From an uncultured Mollicutes bacterium (GTDB lineage: Bacteria > Bacillota_I > Bacilli_A > Acholeplasmatales > Anaeroplasmataceae), in contig CAMWSQ010000002.1 in assembly GCA_947177025.1 (NCBI GenBank), positions 1 to 41,088 of the forward strand: a stretch of 41,088 nt of DNA, written 5' to 3'. The notes beneath the pieces were generated by a model that saw only the letters and a program-made list of their open reading frames with translations, was not told the DNA's origin and made no database searches. This document shows positions 10,953 through 32,165 of this stretch, in pieces. How positions within the stretch are numbered: position 1 is the first letter of the stretch; each line of letters begins with the position of its first letter. The position numbers and the translations under genes are program-made.

Positions 10953-13400
10953 GTGATGAATTTGAAAAAATTTATAGCTACACTTATTTCTTTAGCAATT
11001 ACAATTGTATTTGCATATCTTTCGTATAATTACTTTGACAATGTTGTATTGTTTATTGTATATTTATCTTTAGCTATTGCGTTTATGATTTGTACTGTTG
11101 TGCTAGTTATGCTAGTATTAAATCAGAAAAATGTTGAAAAGATAACATGGTTAGAAAATAGATTGAATGTATGGAACTCTATTTCCCATCACGTTTCAGC
11201 TGCAGGAGATGAAGCATTCACAAAGCTTCCTATTGGAATCGTAGTTTATGATGCAAATATGGAAGTAAAGTGGGCAAACGATTATGCTAGACAGGTATTT
11301 AAGGATAATTTGATTAATAGCTCTTTGGATTCTATTACAGAAGGCTTTATTGCTGAACTGAATGATGGTAAAGAAAAATTGCTGATTTCAGCGTATGATT
11401 TGAAATTTGATGTTATACATAATGTAGAAAATAAGATTCTTTATTTCTTTGATGTTACACACAGAGAAGCAACAATTCAAAAGTATAATGACAGAATCAC
11501 AGCATTTGCATTAATTGATTTTGATAATCTAGAGGCTTCCTTGAAGCGATATGATATGCAAGAGCAAGCAAACATAAGAGGTCAGCTTTTGGGTGTTATT
11601 TCTGATTGGCTTCAAAGTCATGGTTGTTGTTTAGAAACATTATCTAGTAACCAAATGTTTATTGTTTTAGACCACGAAGCATTGGATAGAATGATTGCAG
11701 ATAAATTTTCAGTTTTAAATGAGGTTCGTGAGATTTCTAATAAGAACCACTTAAAAGCAAGTATGTCTATGGGCGTTGCTTGTTTCGATGTTGAGGCATC
11801 AGAATTAATTGTTCTTGCTCAAAATGCAATTGAGCTTGCTGAAAAGCGTGGTGGAGACCAGGTTGTTGTTAATATTCAAAATCAAAAGATTCAATATTTC
11901 GGTGGAAATAGTAATTCTTTAGAAAAGAACACATTGGTTGAAGCGCGTAGTCAAACTATGGCTTTAAGAGAAGCAATAGAATCTAGTAGTAATGTATTAA
12001 TTATGTGTCATGATTTAGCAGACTGTGATGCGATTGGTTCTATGATTGCAGTATGGTATTTGGCTAGTACCTCTACCAAGGATTGTAAAATGGTTTTCGA
12101 GCCTAAGCTTGCAGACGCTACGGTACAAAAGGTTTTTGAAAAATTAAAGAATCATACAGATAAATCCATTTATAATGCATTTATTAGTAAAGCACAAGCA
12201 AAAGAAATGCTACGTCCAGAAACGCTTTTGATTATGACAGATACCCAATCTCCAAGATTGGCAATGTTCCCTGATATATTATCACAAGCAAGTAATGTCT
12301 CAGTAATTGACCATCACCGTGCAAGTGATGCAGGGTATACTCAGACAGTTTCTTATTATGTAGAAACTTCAGCTTCTTCAACAGTTGAGCTTGTTTCTGA
12401 AATGTTCCTATTCTATAATAAGACATTTGAGATTGATCCATTAATTGCATCTATTATGTTAGCGGGTATTGTTGTAGATACAAATAACTTTACTTACCGT
12501 ACTCGTACGAGAACATTTGAAGCGGCATCTACCTTGAATACAATGGGTGCAGATATGGTATTGGTTCGTAGATTATTAAGAGATTCCTATGAAGAAGAAC
12601 GCACCCTAGCAGAAGCTATGGTCAATGCATTCATTTATGAAAAACGATTTGCAATTGTTGCAGAGCCTGAGGATAAGGTCATTCCAGACCGTACCACTCT
12701 TGCGAAGATTTCAGATAAGCTTCTTACAATTGAAGGTATTGAAGCATCATTCACGATTGGGCGTATTGATAAAAATACAATTGGTATATCTGCAAGAAGT
12801 ATTGATATTAACGTTCAAATTATTATGGAAGAAATGGAGGGTGGTGGACACTTTAATGCTGCTGCTACCCAAATGAAGGGCATTACAATTGCCGAAGCCA
12901 AAGAGCGTTTGATAAATATTTTGAAACGAGATTATATTGATTTAGGAGATGGTAAAATGAAGGTAATTTTAACTGCAGATGTGAAAGGTAAAGGAAAGAA
13001 AAATGACATCTTAGATGTTGCAAACGGATATGGAAACTTCCTTATCACAAACAAGCTTGCTATTCTAGCATCTGAAGAAAATTTAAAGAAGCTTGCTCAA
13101 CAACAAGAACAAGAACGTATTGAAAACGAAAACAGAAGAAACGTACTTGAAAAGCTTAAGACAGAAATTCAAGATAAGTTCATTTCTGTTGGTATTAAGG
13201 TTGGTGCAGAAGGAAAGAACTTTGGTCACATTACTACAAAATATATTTGTGAAGAGTTTGAAGCACAAACAGGAATTCATCTAGATAAGAAGAAGGTTGA
13301 ATTACCTGCAGAAATTAATTCTGTTGGTATCTTTACAGCCAATGTAAGATTAGATAAGGATATAATTGCAACATTTGAGATAAACGTTATTGAGAAATAA
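10953..13400 (+). CDS. gdpP-rplI: Fusion of GdpP-type c-di-AMP phosphodiesterase (PAS-like, degenerate GGDEF, DHH/DHHA1) with 50S ribosomal protein L9
   Basis: Two N-terminal TMs, DCDAIGSM, DHHRASD, VVDTNNFTYRTRTRTFEAA and GGGHFNAAA motifs; the last ~148 aa (MKVILTADVKGKGKKNDILDVANGYGNFLITNKLA...) is bL9. Confidence 0.93.
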   Translation: MMNLKKFIATLISLAITIVFAYLSYNYFDNVVLFIVYLSLAIAFMICTVVLVMLVLNQKNVEKITWLENRLNVWNSISHHVSAAGDEAFTKLPIGIVVYDANMEVKWANDYARQVFKDNLINSSLDSITEGFIAELNDGKEKLLISAYDLKFDVIHNVENKILYFFDVTHREATIQKYNDRITAFALIDFDNLEASLKRYDMQEQANIRGQLLGVISDWLQSHGCCLETLSSNQMFIVLDHEALDRMIADKFSVLNEVREISNKNHLKASMSMGVACFDVEASELIVLAQNAIELAEKRGGDQVVVNIQNQKIQYFGGNSNSLEKNTLVEARSQTMALREAIESSSNVLIMCHDLADCDAIGSMIAVWYLASTSTKDCKMVFEPKLADATVQKVFEKLKNHTDKSIYNAFISKAQAKEMLRPETLLIMTDTQSPRLAMFPDILSQASNVSVIDHHRASDAGYTQTVSYYVETSASSTVELVSEMFLFYNKTFEIDPLIASIMLAGIVVDTNNFTYRTRTRTFEAASTLNTMGADMVLVRRLLRDSYEEERTLAEAMVNAFIYEKRFAIVAEPEDKVIPDRTTLAKISDKLLTIEGIEASFTIGRIDKNTIGISARSIDINVQIIMEEMEGGGHFNAAATQMKGITIAEAKERLINILKRDYIDLGDGKMKVILTADVKGKGKKNDILDVANGYGNFLITNKLAILASEENLKKLAQQQEQERIENENRRNVLEKLKTEIQDKFISVGIKVGAEGKNFGHITTKYICEEFEAQTGIHLDKKKVELPAEINSVGIFTANVRLDKDIIATFEINVIEK
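12944..12959 (+). promoter_or_regulatory. rplI: Internal Shine-Dalgarno and in-frame ATG at the L9 domain boundary
   Basis: aggag at 12944-12948, 8-nt gap, ATG at 12957, in frame with the GdpP ORF (codon 669). Confidence 0.6.
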
Positions 13401-22130: not shown

Positions 22131-23060
22131 ATGAAACTAAAAGAATTATTACAAAATTGGGTAGATAAATATGCAAAACTTGCTTTAAAGGAAAGAAGCT
22201 ATAATGGATATGCAGATGTAATAAGATTACATATCAATCCAATCTTAGGTAATTATGACATTCAAGATATTACACCTACTATATTACAAGATTATGTAAT
22301 TGAAAAACTAAAATCAGGTAATCTTATCACACATGAACCCCTAGCTTCTAATTCAGTATGTAGGATTGTGTCCGTCTTAAAACAAGCATTTCATCTTGCT
22401 TTAAATCTTGATTTGATTTCTAAGGATCCAACTACTACTATTAAACTTCCAACGACTAGTGAAAAAGAAGTATTGGCCCTTACTAGAGAAGAACAAAAGA
22501 TAGTAGAAGAATACTGTCTTAAAAGTAATAAAAACAATTATATTGGAATTATTATTTGTCTTTATACAGGGATTCGATTAGGAGAACTTTTAGCCCTTAC
22601 ATGGGAAGATATAGACTTTAACAAAAAGTATCTTTACATAAAAAAGACTTCTTATACAATTAAAAGGAATGGGAAAAATACGATTGTCACAGATACACCT
22701 AAGACAAAGAAATCAAATCGGTTAATTCCTATTCCAGCTAAACTCATACAGCTTCTAGCCATCTACAAATCTAAATCCTCTTGTAAGTATATTATTCATA
22801 CCTACAAAAATAAAATGGTAGAAACAAGATCCTACCAAAGAACATTTGAATCCATCCTAAATAAATGTAAAATCAAGCATTATAATTTTCATTGTCTAAG
22901 ACATACCTTTGCAACAAGAGCATTAGAACTGGGAATAGATATTAAGACATTATCCGAAATTTTAGGACATACCAATGTAGCAATTACTCTCAACAGATAT
23001 GCTCATTCTCTACTTGAATACAAAATTCAAGAAATGAATAAAATCGTACAAATCCTATAA
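22131..23060 (+). CDS. Tyrosine-type site-specific recombinase/integrase
   Basis: Core-binding SAM-like domain; TGIRLGELLALTWEDID (catalytic R), HCLRHTFATRALELGIDIKTLSEILGHTNVAITLNRYAH (H-x-x-R, H, Y). Confidence 0.94.
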   Translation: MKLKELLQNWVDKYAKLALKERSYNGYADVIRLHINPILGNYDIQDITPTILQDYVIEKLKSGNLITHEPLASNSVCRIVSVLKQAFHLALNLDLISKDPTTTIKLPTTSEKEVLALTREEQKIVEEYCLKSNKNNYIGIIICLYTGIRLGELLALTWEDIDFNKKYLYIKKTSYTIKRNGKNTIVTDTPKTKKSNRLIPIPAKLIQLLAIYKSKSSCKYIIHTYKNKMVETRSYQRTFESILNKCKIKHYNFHCLRHTFATRALELGIDIKTLSEILGHTNVAITLNRYAHSLLEYKIQEMNKIVQIL

Positions 23061-23066
23061 CGAAAT

Positions 23067-23096
23067 TGCCATCTAGCAAAACAGGTGGCATTTTTT
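23067..23096 (+). terminator. Rho-independent terminator of the integrase gene
   Basis: TGCCATCT agcaaaac AGGTGGCA followed by TTTTTT. Confidence 0.75.
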
Positions 23097-23108
23097 AATA
23101 ATAAAAAG

Positions 23109-23132
23109 CCACCTATTATAATAATAGATGGT
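23109..23132 (+). repeat. Left arm of a 24-bp imperfect inverted repeat
   Basis: CCACCTATTATAATAATAGATGGT; the reverse complement of 23214-23237 matches at 21 of 24 positions. Confidence 0.85.
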
Positions 23133-23204
23133 TAAATATAATTTTTTATGGTTTAATTTTACCATTATCTAGAAATGTTTTCAATGAAATAGATAATTTT
23201 TCCT

Positions 23205-23231
23205 TTGAAAAAGACCATAAAATATTATAAT
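23205..23231 (+). promoter_or_regulatory. Putative promoter of the BspA-like lipoprotein gene; its -10 lies inside the right IR arm
   Basis: TTGAAA 23205-23210, 15-bp spacer, TATAAT 23226-23231; RBS aaggag 23245-23250, ATG 23258. Confidence 0.5.
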
Positions 23232-23237
23232 AGGTGG
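23214..23237 (-). repeat. Right arm of the 24-bp imperfect inverted repeat
   Basis: ACCATAAAATATTATAATAGGTGG; inverted relative to 23109-23132. Confidence 0.85.
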
Positions 23238-23257
23238 TTATAAGAAGGAGAAATACT

Positions 23258-26200
23258 ATGAAAAAAGTAAAATCTATCTTTTTAATGATTCTATGTTATA
23301 GCATTATTATACTTATAAGTTCTTGTAGTGGTGAAAGTAAGCATACTCATTCCTATACTTACAAGAGTAATGATACACAGCATTGGCAAGAATGCAGTTG
23401 TGGTGAAAAACAATATAAAGAGGATCATGTCTTTGGACAGTGGACAACAACTCAAGAGCCAACAGTCAGTTTCCTTGGCAGTAAAAAAAGAACTTGTGAA
23501 ATTTGCCAATATGAACAAGTAGAAGAGCTAGAACTAAAAGAACCAGATGATCCTCAAGGTTTAAAATGTTCTTTAAATGAGGATAAAAAAAGCTATACTG
23601 TTATTGGTATAGATTTGGCAGCAAATGATACTATGATAGATATAATTATTCCAAGTACATATGCTGAATTACCTGTTACAAGCATTGGCAGTAGTGCCTT
23701 CTTTGAATGTAGTAGTTTAGAAAGTATCACAATCCCAGATAGTGTAACAAGCATAGGTGTTAATGCTTTTTATAATTGTAGTAATCTTAAAAATTTAACC
23801 ATAGGCAATAATGTCACAAGTATCGGTAATAATGCATTCCATAATTGTAGCATTGAAATGGCAACAATACCAACTTCCTTAATACCCTATATTCCAAAAG
23901 GTGATTTAAAAGAAGTAATCATTACAGGAGGAGAGAGTATAGGCAATAATGCTTTTATATATTCTCATGGTTTGGAAAGTATCACAATCCCAGATAGTGT
24001 AATAAGCATAGGAGAACATGCTTTTTCTTATTCCTTTCCTGATAGCTGTTTCAGTTTGACAAATGTTTATTATGAAGGAACAATAGAAGATTGGTGTCAC
24101 ATCTCATTTTATGATTCATTATCTAGTCCAATGTATTATGCAAACCATTTCTATTTAAGAAATAGTAATAATGAGTGGGAAGAAATGACAAGTATAGATA
24201 TTCCAGATACTATTACAGAAATAGGACAATATCAATTCTACGGATTTAATAATGTTACTTCTATTGTAATACCAGACAGTGTGAAAAGCATAGGTTCAGG
24301 TGCCTTTTCTTATTGTAGTAGTCTAGAAAGTATTATCATTCCAAATAATGTAACAAGCATAGAATTTGCTGTTTTTTATGGTTGTAGTAGTCTAGAAAGC
24401 ATTGTAGTTCCAGATAGTGTAGCAAGCATCGGCAATAATGCATTCTATAATTGTAGCAGTTTAAAAAGTATTAAAATCCCAGATAATGTCACCAGTATAG
24501 GGGAGTGGAGCTTCTATAATTGTAGCAGTTTGGAAAGTATCACAATCCCAGATAATGTCACCAGTATAGGGGAGCGGAGCTTCTATAATTGTAGCAGTTT
24601 GGAAAGTATCACAATCCCAAATAGTGCAAGCATAGGAAAATATGCATTTTCTAATTGTGATAATATAGTTAAAGCAACCCTTCCAATTTCAGCAATGAAC
24701 TTTATTTCATCAACATCAGAAAAAAAATTAAAAGAAGTAATTATAACAAGTGGAACGAATATAGGAAAATATACCTTTTCTAGTTGTAGTAGTCTAACAA
24801 GTATCACAATTCCAGTTAGTGTAACAAGTATAGGAGAAGAGGCCTTCTTTCATTGTAGTTTAAAAAATATATATTATGAAGGAACAATAGAAGATTGGTG
24901 TCATATCTCTTTTTCAATTCAAGCTAATTATACAATATTTAGTTCTTTTACTTCGAATAATCATTTCTATTTAAGAAATAATGATAATGATTGGGAAGAA
25001 ATGACAAGTATAAATATTCCAGATACTATTACAGAAATAGGACAATATCAATTCTCAGGATTTAATAGTGTTACATCTATTACCATCTCAAATAGTGTAA
25101 CAAGCATTGGCAGTAGAGCCTTCTCTAGATGTAGTAGTTTAACTAGCATCACATGTCCATTTGTTGGTGCTAGTCTAAATGAAGTAGAGGATGCATTTTT
25201 GGGCTATATTTTTGGAGCCACTTCTTATCAACAAAATTTATATTTTGTACCCGAAAGCTTAAATGAAGTAATCATTACAGGGGGAGAGAGCATAGTAGCA
25301 TCTGCATTTAGTGGTTGTAGCAGTTTAGAAAGTATCACAATCACAGAAAGTGTCACCAATATAGGAAAATATGCCTTCTCTGGATGTAACAATCTAACAA
25401 GTGTTACAATAGGCAATAATGTTACTAGCATAGGAGAATCAGCATTTAGTGGTTGTAGTAACCTTGAAAATGTCTGTTATGAAGGGAATCTAGAGGATTG
25501 GTGTAATATTAATTTTTATAGTATAGGAGATTCCAATCCAATGTTTTATGCAAGCTATTTCTGTATAAGAAATAGTAATTATGAATGGGAAGAAGTAACA
25601 AGTATAGAGATACCAAATACAGTAACAGAAATAGGAACCTATCAATTCTGTGGATTTGATAATGTTACATCAATAACAATCCCAGATAGTGTAACAAGCA
25701 TAGGAAATGGTGCCTTTTATATGTGTTATAGGTTAGTTGAAATCTTTAATTATTCTTCACTTAGTATATTCAAAGGTTCAACTAATAATGGTTCTATAGG
25801 TTACTATGCAAAAGTAATATATACAATAGAAGAAGAAAGTAACCTAATAACAAAAGATAATTATGTGTTTTTTAAAGATAGTAGCAATAAATACAATTTA
25901 GTAAAATATAGTGGTATAGAATCAAATATAATTTTGCCAAAGGATATAGAAGGGAATAATTATGAAATAAATCAATCTGCTTTCCGTGATTGTAGCAGCT
26001 TAGAAAGTATCACGATTCCAAATAGTGTGAAAAGCATAGGAGAATCAGCATTTAGTGGTTGTAGCAACCTTGAAAATGTCTTTTATGAAGGAACAATAGA
26101 AAATTGGTGCAATATTTCAATTATTTCTAATCCAGTGTATTATGCAAGTCACTTCTATCTAAAAAATAGTAATGATAAATGGGAAGAAGTAACAAGTATA

Positions 26201-27730
26201 GAGATACCAAATACAGTAACAGGAATAGGAACCTATCAATTTTGTGGATTTGATAATGTTACATCAATAACAATCCCAGATAGTGTGAGAATCATAGGAG
26301 CATCTGCATTCAGTGGTTGTAGCAGTATAGAAAGTATTACAATTCCAAATAATCTCACAAGTATAGGTGAGCGTGCCTTCTCTGGATGTAGCAGTTTAGA
26401 AAGTATTACAATCCCAAATAGTGTGACAACCATAGGAATGGATGCATTTAGTGGTTGTAGCAACCTTGAAAATGTCTATTATGAAGGAACAATAGAAAAT
26501 TGGTGTAGATTTAACTTTGGTACTCTTGGTAATTTTCCTAATCCAATGAGATCTGCAAATCATTTTTATCTAAGGAATAGTAATAATGAATGGGAAGAAG
26601 TAATAAATATAGAAATACCAAATACAATAACAAAGATAGGAAACTATCAATTCTATGGATTTGATAATGTTACTTCTATTGTAATACCAGACAGTGTGAG
26701 AAGCATAGGATATGATGCCTTCGCTGGATGTAATAGTCTAACAGCTGTTACAATAGGCAATAAAGTCACAAGCATTGATTATAATGCCTTTGATAATTGT
26801 AACAACCTTGAAAATGTCTATTATGAAGGAAATATAGAGGATTGGTGTAAAATTGGCTTTGCGCCATCTATTGCGTCATCTACTTCAAATCCAATGAAAT
26901 ATGCAAGTCATTTCTATATAAGAAATAGTAATAATGAATGGGAAGAAGTGACAAGTATAGAAATACCTGATACAATAACAGAAATAGGAAACTATCAATT
27001 CTATGGATTTGATAATGTTACATCAATAACAATCCCAGATAGTGTAACAAGCATAGGAGAATCAGCATTTAGTGGTTGTAGCAATCTTGAAAATGTCTAT
27101 TATGAAGGAACAATAGAAAATTGGTGTAGAATTAACTTTGCTGTCTATTCAAATCCAATGAAATATGCAAGTCATCTCTATTTAAGAAATAGTAATAATG
27201 AATGGGAAGAAGTAACAAGTGTAGAGATACCAAATACAATAACTATAATAGGAAAATATCAATTCGAGGGATTCTCTAATATTACAACATTAACAATTCC
27301 AGACAGTGTAACAATCATAGGAGATCATGCCTTCTCGGATTGTAGTAATTTAATAAGTGTTACAATGGGCAATAGTGTAATAAACATAGGATATTATATT
27401 TTTTCTAATTGTAGTAGTCTAATAAGTATCATAATTCCAAATAGTGTCATAAACATAAGAGCAGGTACCTTTTCTGGTTGTAGTAGTCTAATAAGTATCA
27501 TAATTCCAAATGGTGTAAAAATCTTTGAATATAATGCCTTCTCTGAATGTAGTAGTCTAATATATGTCTATTATGCAAGTACATCCCATGAATGGAATCA
27601 AATTAGTATTGATTCTTCTAATGAAAATTTAACATCTGCAATAATTTATTACTATTCTGAAACTCAACCAACAGAAGAAGGTAACTTCTGGCATTATGTA
27701 AATGGTCTTCCAACTATATGGGATATATAA
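23258..27730 (+). CDS. Giant BspA-like leucine-rich-repeat lipoprotein
   Basis: Lipobox-like SSC; Cys/His N-terminal unit; many LRR_5-type units SITIPDSVTSIGxxAFxxCSSLE plus seven xYEGxIExWC...WEE cassettes. ATG at 23258 with aaggag. Confidence 0.9.
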   Translation: MKKVKSIFLMILCYSIIILISSCSGESKHTHSYTYKSNDTQHWQECSCGEKQYKEDHVFGQWTTTQEPTVSFLGSKKRTCEICQYEQVEELELKEPDDPQGLKCSLNEDKKSYTVIGIDLAANDTMIDIIIPSTYAELPVTSIGSSAFFECSSLESITIPDSVTSIGVNAFYNCSNLKNLTIGNNVTSIGNNAFHNCSIEMATIPTSLIPYIPKGDLKEVIITGGESIGNNAFIYSHGLESITIPDSVISIGEHAFSYSFPDSCFSLTNVYYEGTIEDWCHISFYDSLSSPMYYANHFYLRNSNNEWEEMTSIDIPDTITEIGQYQFYGFNNVTSIVIPDSVKSIGSGAFSYCSSLESIIIPNNVTSIEFAVFYGCSSLESIVVPDSVASIGNNAFYNCSSLKSIKIPDNVTSIGEWSFYNCSSLESITIPDNVTSIGERSFYNCSSLESITIPNSASIGKYAFSNCDNIVKATLPISAMNFISSTSEKKLKEVIITSGTNIGKYTFSSCSSLTSITIPVSVTSIGEEAFFHCSLKNIYYEGTIEDWCHISFSIQANYTIFSSFTSNNHFYLRNNDNDWEEMTSINIPDTITEIGQYQFSGFNSVTSITISNSVTSIGSRAFSRCSSLTSITCPFVGASLNEVEDAFLGYIFGATSYQQNLYFVPESLNEVIITGGESIVASAFSGCSSLESITITESVTNIGKYAFSGCNNLTSVTIGNNVTSIGESAFSGCSNLENVCYEGNLEDWCNINFYSIGDSNPMFYASYFCIRNSNYEWEEVTSIEIPNTVTEIGTYQFCGFDNVTSITIPDSVTSIGNGAFYMCYRLVEIFNYSSLSIFKGSTNNGSIGYYAKVIYTIEEESNLITKDNYVFFKDSSNKYNLVKYSGIESNIILPKDIEGNNYEINQSAFRDCSSLESITIPNSVKSIGESAFSGCSNLENVFYEGTIENWCNISIISNPVYYASHFYLKNSNDKWEEVTSIEIPNTVTGIGTYQFCGFDNVTSITIPDSVRIIGASAFSGCSSIESITIPNNLTSIGERAFSGCSSLESITIPNSVTTIGMDAFSGCSNLENVYYEGTIENWCRFNFGTLGNFPNPMRSANHFYLRNSNNEWEEVINIEIPNTITKIGNYQFYGFDNVTSIVIPDSVRSIGYDAFAGCNSLTAVTIGNKVTSIDYNAFDNCNNLENVYYEGNIEDWCKIGFAPSIASSTSNPMKYASHFYIRNSNNEWEEVTSIEIPDTITEIGNYQFYGFDNVTSITIPDSVTSIGESAFSGCSNLENVYYEGTIENWCRINFAVYSNPMKYASHLYLRNSNNEWEEVTSVEIPNTITIIGKYQFEGFSNITTLTIPDSVTIIGDHAFSDCSNLISVTMGNSVINIGYYIFSNCSSLISIIIPNSVINIRAGTFSGCSSLISIIIPNGVKIFEYNAFSECSSLIYVYYASTSHEWNQISIDSSNENLTSAIIYYYSETQPTEEGNFWHYVNGLPTIWDI
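24475..24612 (+). repeat. Tandem direct repeat, 2 x 69 bp
   Basis: aatcccagataatgtcaccagtataggggagYggagcttctataattgtagcagtttggaaagtatcac twice in tandem with one mismatch. Confidence 0.9.
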
Positions 27731-27762: not shown

Positions 27763-30700
27763 ATGTTTAAAAAGTTTTTATTCACAATTGTTTGTTGCTT
27801 TACAGGATTGGTTTTATTGGTTTCCTGTGGAGGAAATCATACGCATAAATATAATCAGCTAGAAATTATTAGAAATGCAACATGTACAGAGTCTGGAATA
27901 GAAAGAGTTAGTTGTTCAGGGTGTAAAGATTTTTATGAAACATCCATACCAGCCTTAGGGCATACATACAATCAAGGTGTAATAACCAATGCTGCTACAT
28001 GTAAAGAAACAGGGAGCAAAGTATATACTTGTACAGTTTGCCAAAATACATACACAGAAATAGTTCCTATGACAGAGCATTTCAAGATAGATATTGGTAC
28101 AGCAGTGGAATCTACTTGTCAGCATTCTGGAATTACTAGCGGTTCCAAATGTAAAGATTGTGGTATAATTTTTTCAGAACAAACGATTATAGAGAAAGTA
28201 GATCACAAGTATGAAAATGGCATTTGTATTTGGTGTAAAGATGAAAAAGAATATACAATCACTTTTAAAATCAATAATGAGATAGTAAAGACAGAAAATT
28301 TTACTGTAAACACAAAAACTATAGAAGAACCTGAAATTCCTTCAAAAGATGGTTATACAGCAAGTTGGGAAAAATATGAATTGTCCAATAATGATATTAC
28401 AGTTAATGCAATTTATACGCCCATTAAATATCATTTGACACTAGAACCTTATGAGGGTAAGTTAGAAAACAATATAATTCAAGTAGAACATAATGAAACC
28501 ATATATTTACCAATTCCAGAGTATAAAGGAATGGCATTCCAAGGTTGGTTTGATAGTGATGACACTCAATTTACAGATGGGGAAGGTAAATGTATTGTAG
28601 AAGCATCTTTATTAGAGGGGAAAACTCTTTATGCACAATATGACATATTAAAATGCATAGTTACATTTGAAACAAATGGTGGAACTACAATTAATCCAAT
28701 TCAATATAATTATGGAGATAAATTAGGAGAACTTGAAATCCCAACAAAATCTGGAGTATATTTCGTAGGCTGGTATTCTTTAGATGAAGAAATTCAATAT
28801 ACTGCTGATACTATAATTGAAGAAAATTTAACTCTTTATGCGAAATGGATTAATAGTACAGCAATTTCAACTGCAGAAGAGTTGATTGCAATAGGAGAAA
28901 ATCCAACAGCAAATTATCATTTGATTAATGACATTAACTTAAATGGAAATGTTTGGGATCCTATTGATGATTTTTCTGGAATATTAGATGGTTGTGGACA
29001 TGTAATTAAGAACTTTAGTTTGAGTACCACAAGTAAGGAAGATAATTTTGCACTATTTAGAGTAAATAATGGTTCAATTAAAAATATTTCTTTTACTGAT
29101 TTTACGTTTAATTGTACCATCTTTCAAGCTAATGGCTGGACTAATTCAAATATGAGATTAGGAATTATATCTGCAACAAATAGAGGTGTTATTGAGAAAT
29201 GTAAATTACTTTATGGAAAAATACTTTTGAATTTTAATTATGAAATGGGTAAACAAATGGTTTATGACGTTTGTGCTTTTGGACAAGTCTCTAGTGTAAA
29301 TCAAGGAATAATTTCTGAATGTTCATCATATGTTGATATTTCAATGAAATTTGATTCCTACTATATTGCGGATTATCATATTGGCGGTGGGACAGATGGA
29401 AAACAACTATTTTATGTAGGTGGACTTGTTGGAATAAATGAACATTATGTTGGTGAGTCTATTTACGATGCTACGATATCTGCAAATTTAACTACTATTA
29501 GTAAAGAAGCAATGACTGGAGGTCTTCGACCTTTTAGAAATGATAGTTTTTCTTATATTGGCGGCCTGATTGGTAGTAATAATGGTGGCAGTTGTTTTAA
29601 TAGTTATGTAGATGTTGAAAATCAAGTTACTGCCCAATCTGATGGAAAATATTCTGCAAATTATATTAGATATGGCTCATTTGTTGGGCAAAACATTTCA
29701 AGTGGGGGTGTTATTAAACAATCCTATGCAAAAGGGACTATAATAGGTGGTTCAAATGATGAAAATATATTAGGCGGCTTTGTTGGATTAAATTCATCTG
29801 GAGGTCGAATAGAGAACTGTTATTCAGATGTTAAAATAGAATCTGATAAGGGTGGCTCAATAGGAGGTTTTGTAGGAGACAATCAATCTGTAATTCAAAA
29901 TAGTTATTCTTCAAGCAATATTAAAACTGATATAAGGGCAGGTAATATAGGAGGTTTTGCCGGAAAGAATGATTCATCAGGAACTATAACTAAATGCTAT
30001 TCTACAGGAGATGTTTCTACTGTAGGTGGAAATAATGGATATTTTGTAGGTCAAAGTGTAGGAGCATTATTTAAATGTTATTTCTTGCAAGGGGCAGCAT
30101 TAGTTGTTTCTGGCAGATATGAGGATAGGGTTATTGAATATGAAACGATAGAGGGAGTTCTTTATTCAAAACTATGGAGTGAAGAATTCTTAGTTGATGA
30201 ATTATACTGGGATTCCGAAGGATGGATAATTGTTACAGATGAGAATCCTCTATTGGAATGGGAGCTTACTATAGGTCATCGATTTGATACGATGATAGTT
30301 GAACCAACTTGTGAATATGGAGGATTTACAATATATAATTGTATTGATTGCAATCGCTTATTTATTAAGGATTTTATTGATCCTATAGGTCATAACTATA
30401 TTGATGTTGATACAGTTGCTCCATTATGTGAGGCAGATGGATATACTCTTCAAAAATGTAGTAACGATGGCTGTAATAGTACAAGAAAGATTAATATAGT
30501 TCCTGCTACAGGCCATAATCCAGATTCAGCAACACTAAAGAGCAAGAAAGATGCAACATGTACAGAAAATGGGATTGCAGTATATCATTGTGCTGATTGT
30601 GGAAATGATTATCATACGATATTAGAAGCCGAAGGCCATAACGGCGTGTATCAAAATACTATCAAGAAACCTACATGTACAGAAGAAGGGAAAGATGAAT

Positions 30701-32106
30701 ACTATTGTATTACTTGTGAAAATGCATATAGTGTCAGTGTCGAAATAATTGAACACACTTGGATTGATGTTGAAGGCAAAAATCCAACCTGTGGAATTAT
30801 AAAGGATAATGATGGGAATATCATAGACAGACATCCTGTAGATGGAAATAGAGCGGGTGTTAAATGTGAAGTTTGTGATTTAATACAATATGGTTGTGAG
30901 GTTATTCCTGCTCATCAATTGAATTTAATAGAAACCAAACAAGAATCTACCTGCAAAGAAAAAGGAATAGGTTTATATCAATGCTCTATATGTGAAGATG
31001 AAACAGAAGATGATATCCCAGAACTTGGACATACAGATGCAGATAGAGATAATATTTGTGATGTGTGTGGAGAGTTAGCGTTTACTTTGGTAAGTAAAGA
31101 TTTATTTGTTCATATTATAGATGTTGATGGTTTGATGAATATTAGGAATAATCCAAGTGGATATTATTGGCTAGACAATGATATTTATCTTACTAATGTG
31201 AACTGGGTCGCTTTAGGTACTGAAAAATTGCCATTTAAAGGGATATTCTATGGAAATGGACATACAATCAGTGGATTTAATTATAGTTCTAATAATTTAG
31301 AAGAAACATTTATTGCAGGATTGTTTGGATATAATTATGGAACAATTGCAAATGTCAATGTATCTGATGTGAATATTAATGCTACAAATTCTAATGTATT
31401 ATTTGGTGGGATAGCAGCATGCAATAGAGGTTCAATTATAAATTGCAATTTGAATGGCGAAAATACAATTAAATTTACTGTATCTAAAACTATAACAGAT
31501 AATAATCAAGAAATTACAATGGATTATGAATTTATTGCTGGTGGGATTATTGGAATAAATGTGCAAAATGGTACAATTGAAAATTGCACTGTTACAGGAT
31601 CAATCTCGAGTGAATTTATAAATGATTGTTCTATTAAAATAAAGACTATTACAACAATTTGGCAATTAATTGGACAATATATGATTCAATACATTTATAA
31701 AACTAAAGTAAGTACTATACAACATATATCCTTTGGTGGAATTGTTGGACGTAATGAAGGAGCAATAAATTCCTGTTCAGTGAATTCTCAAATTTCTTCA
31801 TACTCCTCTGCAAAGGCAAATCTTGGCGAAAGATTTAAAGGAGAGGCCTTTGCGTATACTCATATGTATGCAGGTGCATTGGCAGGTTATAATTCAGGTT
31901 CAATTTCTAATTGTTCTTCAACAAAGATGGTTTATAACATTCCTAATGGTTATAAATATGTAAACATCCCATATATTATCACTGGTAAATCATATTCAAC
32001 AGGATATCAAATTACAAACTATAGTAAATATGCAAATGCTATTGAAGGGATTGTGGGTAGCAGTTCTACATTTGGAAGTGTAGATAATTATGTACCTATT
32101 ACATAA
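27763..32106 (+). CDS. Giant multidomain lipoprotein: Cys-rich units, InlB B-repeat-like domains, GLUG-like repeats
   Basis: Lipobox LVSC; units like TCTESGIERVSCSGCKDFYETSIPALGH; VTFETNGGTTINPIQYNYGD...FVGWY...TLYAKW; GGFVGLNSSGGRIENCYSDVKI (GLUG-like). ATG 27763 with ggggagg. Confidence 0.85.
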   Translation: MFKKFLFTIVCCFTGLVLLVSCGGNHTHKYNQLEIIRNATCTESGIERVSCSGCKDFYETSIPALGHTYNQGVITNAATCKETGSKVYTCTVCQNTYTEIVPMTEHFKIDIGTAVESTCQHSGITSGSKCKDCGIIFSEQTIIEKVDHKYENGICIWCKDEKEYTITFKINNEIVKTENFTVNTKTIEEPEIPSKDGYTASWEKYELSNNDITVNAIYTPIKYHLTLEPYEGKLENNIIQVEHNETIYLPIPEYKGMAFQGWFDSDDTQFTDGEGKCIVEASLLEGKTLYAQYDILKCIVTFETNGGTTINPIQYNYGDKLGELEIPTKSGVYFVGWYSLDEEIQYTADTIIEENLTLYAKWINSTAISTAEELIAIGENPTANYHLINDINLNGNVWDPIDDFSGILDGCGHVIKNFSLSTTSKEDNFALFRVNNGSIKNISFTDFTFNCTIFQANGWTNSNMRLGIISATNRGVIEKCKLLYGKILLNFNYEMGKQMVYDVCAFGQVSSVNQGIISECSSYVDISMKFDSYYIADYHIGGGTDGKQLFYVGGLVGINEHYVGESIYDATISANLTTISKEAMTGGLRPFRNDSFSYIGGLIGSNNGGSCFNSYVDVENQVTAQSDGKYSANYIRYGSFVGQNISSGGVIKQSYAKGTIIGGSNDENILGGFVGLNSSGGRIENCYSDVKIESDKGGSIGGFVGDNQSVIQNSYSSSNIKTDIRAGNIGGFAGKNDSSGTITKCYSTGDVSTVGGNNGYFVGQSVGALFKCYFLQGAALVVSGRYEDRVIEYETIEGVLYSKLWSEEFLVDELYWDSEGWIIVTDENPLLEWELTIGHRFDTMIVEPTCEYGGFTIYNCIDCNRLFIKDFIDPIGHNYIDVDTVAPLCEADGYTLQKCSNDGCNSTRKINIVPATGHNPDSATLKSKKDATCTENGIAVYHCADCGNDYHTILEAEGHNGVYQNTIKKPTCTEEGKDEYYCITCENAYSVSVEIIEHTWIDVEGKNPTCGIIKDNDGNIIDRHPVDGNRAGVKCEVCDLIQYGCEVIPAHQLNLIETKQESTCKEKGIGLYQCSICEDETEDDIPELGHTDADRDNICDVCGELAFTLVSKDLFVHIIDVDGLMNIRNNPSGYYWLDNDIYLTNVNWVALGTEKLPFKGIFYGNGHTISGFNYSSNNLEETFIAGLFGYNYGTIANVNVSDVNINATNSNVLFGGIAACNRGSIINCNLNGENTIKFTVSKTITDNNQEITMDYEFIAGGIIGINVQNGTIENCTVTGSISSEFINDCSIKIKTITTIWQLIGQYMIQYIYKTKVSTIQHISFGGIVGRNEGAINSCSVNSQISSYSSAKANLGERFKGEAFAYTHMYAGALAGYNSGSISNCSSTKMVYNIPNGYKYVNIPYIITGKSYSTGYQITNYSKYANAIEGIVGSSSTFGSVDNYVPIT

Positions 32107-32122
32107 AAAATAAATCATTTAG

Positions 32123-32165
32123 CCCTTAATGTATTACATTAGTAATTTATTAAGGGTATTTTTTT
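32123..32165 (+). terminator. Rho-independent terminator
   Basis: cccttaatgtattacattagtaatttattaaggg followed by tattttttt. Confidence 0.75.

Follow-up and report, generated by a model that had tools for sequence, protein, structure and literature searches.

An intergenic segment of 129 bp (23109-23237), which adjoins a gene for a site-specific recombinase and precedes a gene for a surface lipoprotein, raises the question whether it is an invertible promoter and, if so, in which of its two states it was assembled. The window, that is the whole stretch of 41,088 nucleotides that was analysed, belongs to a contig of a 1.34-Mb metagenome-assembled genome (MAG, 75% complete) of a gut bacterium of the family Anaeroplasmataceae, a Mollicute family. 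We consider it highly probable that the segment is a phase-variable invertible promoter that is flipped by the adjacent recombinase, drives the lipoprotein operon when ON and is stopped by a terminator in the left core when OFF. At the level of sequence this is supported by the cores, by the conserved promoter and its direction, by the orientations found across species, and by the co-occurrence of recombinase and cores; from the same sequences we infer catalysis by the window recombinase, promoter activity and termination. The recombinase would recombine two near-palindromic cores, by which the segment would flip. In the ON state the internal TTGAAA-N17-TAAAAT promoter would fire through the right core and the ribosome binding site into the two-gene lipoprotein operon, and in the OFF state, which is the assembled one, it would fire towards the recombinase gene and be halted at once by the terminator formed by the left core and a T-run. 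The features are collected in Table 1.

Table 1. Features of the switch and its operon, numbered by position in the window.
Feature	Position	Strand	Basis
Tyrosine recombinase gene, 309 aa, probable invertase	22131..23060	+	Pfam Phage_integrase 1.3e-27 and SAM-like N-terminal domain
Intrinsic terminator of recombinase gene	23067..23096	+	Terminator scan; fold -12.2 kcal/mol
Predicted intrinsic terminator, left core and T-run, on leftward OFF transcript	23099..23131	-	Terminator scan; fold -10.2 kcal/mol
Left recombination core CCACCTATTATAATAATAGATGG	23109..23131	no strand	0 mismatches to family core
Inside of invertible segment	23132..23214	no strand	Aligns inverted to G010:C13 and G005:C7, in same orientation to seven others
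Conserved ACCATAAA just after -10	23145..23152	-	In 10/13 segments
Conserved promoter: -35 TTGAAA 23184-23179, 17 bp, -10 TAAAAT 23161-23156, TG before -10	23156..23184	-	In all 13 genus segments; also found by scan
Right recombination core, inward CCACCTATTATAATATTTTATGG	23215..23237	no strand	3 mismatches to core, inner half-site degenerate
Ribosome binding site aaggag	23245..23250	+	Sequence
BspA-type LRR lipoprotein gene, 1490 aa, first in switched operon	23258..27730	+	LRR_5 3.5e-244; N-terminus MKKVKSIFLMILCYSIIILISSC
Second lipoprotein gene, 1447 aa, List_Bact (Listeria-Bacteroides) and GLUG repeats	27763..32106	+	Pfam; N-terminus MFKKFLFTIVCCFTGLVLLVSC
Probable operon terminator CCCTTAAT...ATTAAGGG and T-run	about 32123..32165	+	Read from sequence

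Repeat, cores and recombinase

The initial annotation had described inverted arms of 24 bp (23109-23132 and 23214-23237) that match at 21/24 positions, with no mismatch in the outer 15 bp, and enclose 81 bp, and a recombinase stop codon 48 bp to the left of the repeat. These values were reproduced by recomputation, the arms being 88% complementary. The repeat alone was only moderate, as dinucleotide shuffling of the intergenic region produced one equally good in 3 of 2000 trials, and shuffling of the whole window in 6 of 30. Its significance derives from the comparison with relatives and not from its own score; a chance origin of the repeat, which that score does not exclude, was rejected by this comparison.

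Each arm holds a 23-bp near-palindromic core, CCAYCTATTANNNTAATAGRTGG. Most switches had a core-to-core distance of 115-116 bp; in the window it was 106 bp, and a switch with an insertion reached 263 bp. The central triplet, TAA in both cores of the window, varied from locus to locus (TAA, GAA, AGA, AAA, ATT, TAG) and was identical within 11 of 11 pairs, which none of 100000 permutations equalled. Tyrosine recombinases require such identity in the crossover region for strand exchange. A slightly narrower core motif, with two mismatches at most, occurred in 5 of the 11 genomes of the genus, in which the reversed motif used as a control gave no match. Among 395 genomes drawn from the class the exact paired-site pattern was detected in five, all of them in the window's genus.

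The closest recombinases were found in relatives, including named Anaeroplasmataceae MAGs. A close recombinase, defined by a best match of 47% identity or more to the protein of genus g4, was present in 11 of 56 genomes of the family, and all 11 also had cores; a core match with two mismatches was detected in 2 of the 45 genomes without a close recombinase (P 5e-10). Beside the more distant recombinase relatives (L057, L059, L102, L104 and L106) no comparable repeat pair was found. Several switches of one core type per genome were observed in the relatives G007, G009, G010, G005 and G021, with three complete switches of one core family, besides two partial ones, in G007, and a single core pair without further switches was found in the window's own genome, which is 75% complete. 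Some switches, for example G010:C15, have no recombinase gene nearby, which suggests that the recombinase may act in trans on other switches. The description of the window switch as self-contained is therefore doubtful, given the several same-core switches of relatives, some of them without a recombinase gene nearby and some preceding defence operons.

Some of the recombinase copies in relatives are damaged: both copies of G005 have a stop codon, that of G007 is split, and those of G009 are broken or fragments. Some switches in these genomes may therefore be frozen. The same could be asked of the window, where the right core has three mismatches in its inner half; together with the interrupted or fragmentary recombinase copies in G005, G007 and G009, these would fit a former switch that is now locked OFF by decay of this core. 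However, the window recombinase is, judged by its sequence, intact, with the catalytic motifs RLGE, TPKTKKS, HCLRH, LGH and NRYAH (R, K-region, HxxR, H and Y) all kept, the central triplets of the window cores still match, and inner half-sites like its degenerate one also occur in G007:C8, G007:C45 and G010:C15. We consider a frozen relic unlikely. The degenerate half-site, though common to several relatives, does count against a working inverton, as do the broken recombinase copies in some relatives and a repeat that by itself is not rare.

Three loci of G007 depart from the common layout. Of two similar genes for 149-aa lipoproteins, the second has a solitary core (L091:9013-9035, G007:C17) directly upstream, possibly a half-deleted switch. 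The switch at L088:8878-9163 (G007:C2) is 286 bp long through an insertion that resembles a small mobile repeat, with GAGTTCCCCCA and TGGGGGAACTC as inverted ends and with TTGTGTAAGAATTAT repeated. At L093:1-138 (G007:C78) the place of the near core is taken by GGGGCTGTTAAGAAACTAAAAAGTTTCTAACG, which is found behind the recombinase gene of G007:C8 as well and seems to be an inserted element.

The conserved promoter and its direction

A promoter of the form TTGNAA-N17-TAAAAT, with TG one base before the -10, was present in 13 of 13 segments of the genus, and the distance from the end of the -10 to the end of the near core was 46-47 bp in 12 of them, the exception being interrupted by inserted sequence. 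In the window this promoter is the minus-strand TTGAAA-N17-TAAAAT at 23184-23156, which the initial annotation had not named. It points at the recombinase gene and away from the lipoprotein operon, and the assembled state is therefore OFF.

The initial annotation had taken the locus to be drawn in an ON-like state, with TTGAAA (23205-23210) and, after a spacer of 15 bp, TATAAT (23226-23231) in the right arm as the lipoprotein promoter, of which inversion would swap the -35. Both hexamers are indeed present at these positions, near the ribosome binding site. However, the spacer is only 15 bp, the pair was missing from the output of the promoter scan, and the hexamers are not conserved: TATAAT is the centre of the core of the window locus, and sister core centres read TTCTAA, TTTTAA and similar. 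As the better, conserved promoter also faces the opposite way, a locus that is ON as drawn is very improbable. What stands of the earlier interpretation is a tyrosine recombinase beside the invertible promoter of a surface-lipoprotein gene; the right-arm -10 with an exchanged -35 has given way to a complete conserved promoter inside the segment.

For the invertible promoter in its OFF state, the sequence read leftward in the window is CCATCTATTATTATAATAGGTGG and then CTTTTTATTA, and the scan found two terminators in the region as compared to 0.1 expected. Also in the sister switches a T-run usually trails the core, read outward, on the side that faces away from the gene. The left-core terminator should stop the OFF transcript at once and spare the recombinase gene an antisense run, as predicted from this arrangement.

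At a distance of about 21 bp from the near core, the element ACCATAAA is similar to the outer portion of a core half-site and is perhaps an extra contact for the recombinase. It is missing from three segments, all of them in G009, the genome in which the recombinase copies are broken. A different arrangement was observed in three of three loci of genus g4 (L108, L109 and L127), where TTGACT-N17-TACAAT lies outside the gene-side repeat and reads into the segment. The TACAAT forms the first bases of the repeat, and the whole is a candidate fixed inward promoter.

Both orientations among relatives

A comparison of orientation across related genomes had been proposed, and both orientations were found at orthologous loci; this comparison is between species, with one genome per species. 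Alignment of the interior of the window switch to those of G010:C13 and G005:C7 required inversion (z 6.3 and 7.5); seven other switches aligned to it without inversion. The loci G007:C8 and G010:C13 are syntenic, with recombinase, Sel1 genes and upstream genes in common. Their flanks aligned without inversion, with 227/295 and 596/681 positions identical, and their interiors aligned, gap-free and with 71/91 identical, only with one of them inverted. Genus g4 repeatedly combines a related recombinase with a repeat pair and an Ssp-type operon, and the orthologous locus was found there in both states, with the promoter directed at the operon in G046 and at the recombinase in G023, G013 and, by sequence, G044. 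Judged by promoter direction, G010:C13, G005:C7, G009:C9 (at a contig edge) and G046 are ON, and the window, G007:C2, G007:C8, G007:C45, G007:C7 (at a contig edge), G010:C15, G009:C3 (two switches), G009:C5, G005:C3, G021:C20, G021:C3, G023, G013 and G044 are OFF.

From these orientations we infer that inversion would also occur within one population. Assemblies are prone to break at sites where the two orientations coexist, and breaks may have other causes. Five of 21 segments lay at most 150 bp from a contig end as compared to 0.23 expected, a figure based on rounded genome sizes, and in G042 one contig begins exactly at a core and another ends within a segment. This enrichment at contig ends is a hint that the orientations are mixed live.

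Although the closest solved relatives of the recombinase are chains labelled 'Int protein' and the left arm does form a terminator, it is hardly credible that the enzyme is the integrase of a mobile element, with repeats that are mere terminators or attachment remnants and with nothing being switched, as no mobile-element genes were found among the sampled neighbours, some loci have cores but no recombinase gene, paired cores of fixed spacing enclose the conserved promoter in both orientations, and the inverted syntenic orthologues argue strongly against it.

Genes behind the putative switches and known systems

In the window, the second lipoprotein gene is probably co-transcribed with the first, from which it is separated by a gap of 32 bp. 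The hairpin loop of the probable operon terminator (32123-32165) exceeds the length covered by the terminator scan. Several sister switches also precede genes of surface-protein type or related ones, namely BspA LRR genes (G007:C2, G009:C5 and G009:C9), List_Bact repeat genes (G005:C7 and G010:C15), a CotH gene (G009:C3) and Sel1 genes (G010:C13 and, by a similar protein start, G007:C8). Others precede a methylase and a Type IIG enzyme (G005:C3 and, by the same protein starts, G007:C7), a Type III restriction-modification (R-M) system (G007:C45), a Type II R-M system (G021:C20) or a methylase piece with BrxP (G009:C3). In G023 an operon of BrxP/SspD-like, SspB, SspC, SspA and Pbe genes lies behind the switch, and this Ssp/Pbe operon was recognisable by protein starts in G046 and G044. 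The joint set of targets, surface and defence, is unusual.

By mechanism the window switch is a promoter inverton, and its closest precedent is the mpl (P35) system of Mycoplasma penetrans. There, most mpl genes are believed to switch independently of one another, each through an invertible promoter beside it, and a single tyrosine recombinase acts (Horino 2003, 2009, via PMC2268961, PMC3599477, PMC8593674). Both systems belong to Mollicutes and combine promoter inversion before surface lipoprotein genes at several loci with a tyrosine recombinase, whereas the order is different here and the targets include defence operons. The likeness is drawn at the level of mechanism only. In Clostridioides difficile, the tyrosine recombinase RecV is described as flipping short upstream segments at several loci, such as cwpV and the flagellar switch. 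Known RecV switches can exert their effect within the leader, once transcription has begun, with Rho involved in the flagellar one (PMC7446863), whereas here the promoter itself lies within the segment. The invertons of Bacteroidales likewise invert intergenic promoters before surface genes, often with tyrosine invertases nearby (Jiang 2019 via PMC10333322; PMC11892184), but phylum, core and promoter are all different here. In one survey the number of invertons per genome had a median of 0 among Bacillus-like Firmicutes (PMC11892184), in contrast to G007 with its three complete switches and two partial ones. A limited literature search gave no matching report on phase variation in Anaeroplasma or on phosphorothioation with phase variation.

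Beyond the single locus, we tentatively propose, at somewhat less than an even chance, a phase-variation regulon specific to the Anaeroplasmataceae lineage. One recombinase family would act on near-identical cassettes genome-wide and diversify surface lipoproteins as well as anti-phage systems (R-M Types II, IIG and III; Ssp/Pbe phosphorothioation), with the core doubling as OFF terminator and the pair-matched triplets limiting cross-talk between loci. The results place a multi-locus promoter-inversion system in a little-studied family of gut Mollicutes. With the exact core motif and the promoter geometry, ON and OFF states can be scored by anyone in genomes and metagenomes, and a link of surface-protein and anti-phage switching to one recombinase family makes joint bet-hedging against phage and host testable. 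Elsewhere in the window, at 10953-13400, a single frame of 815 aa joins a GdpP-like c-di-AMP phosphodiesterase to ribosomal protein L9.
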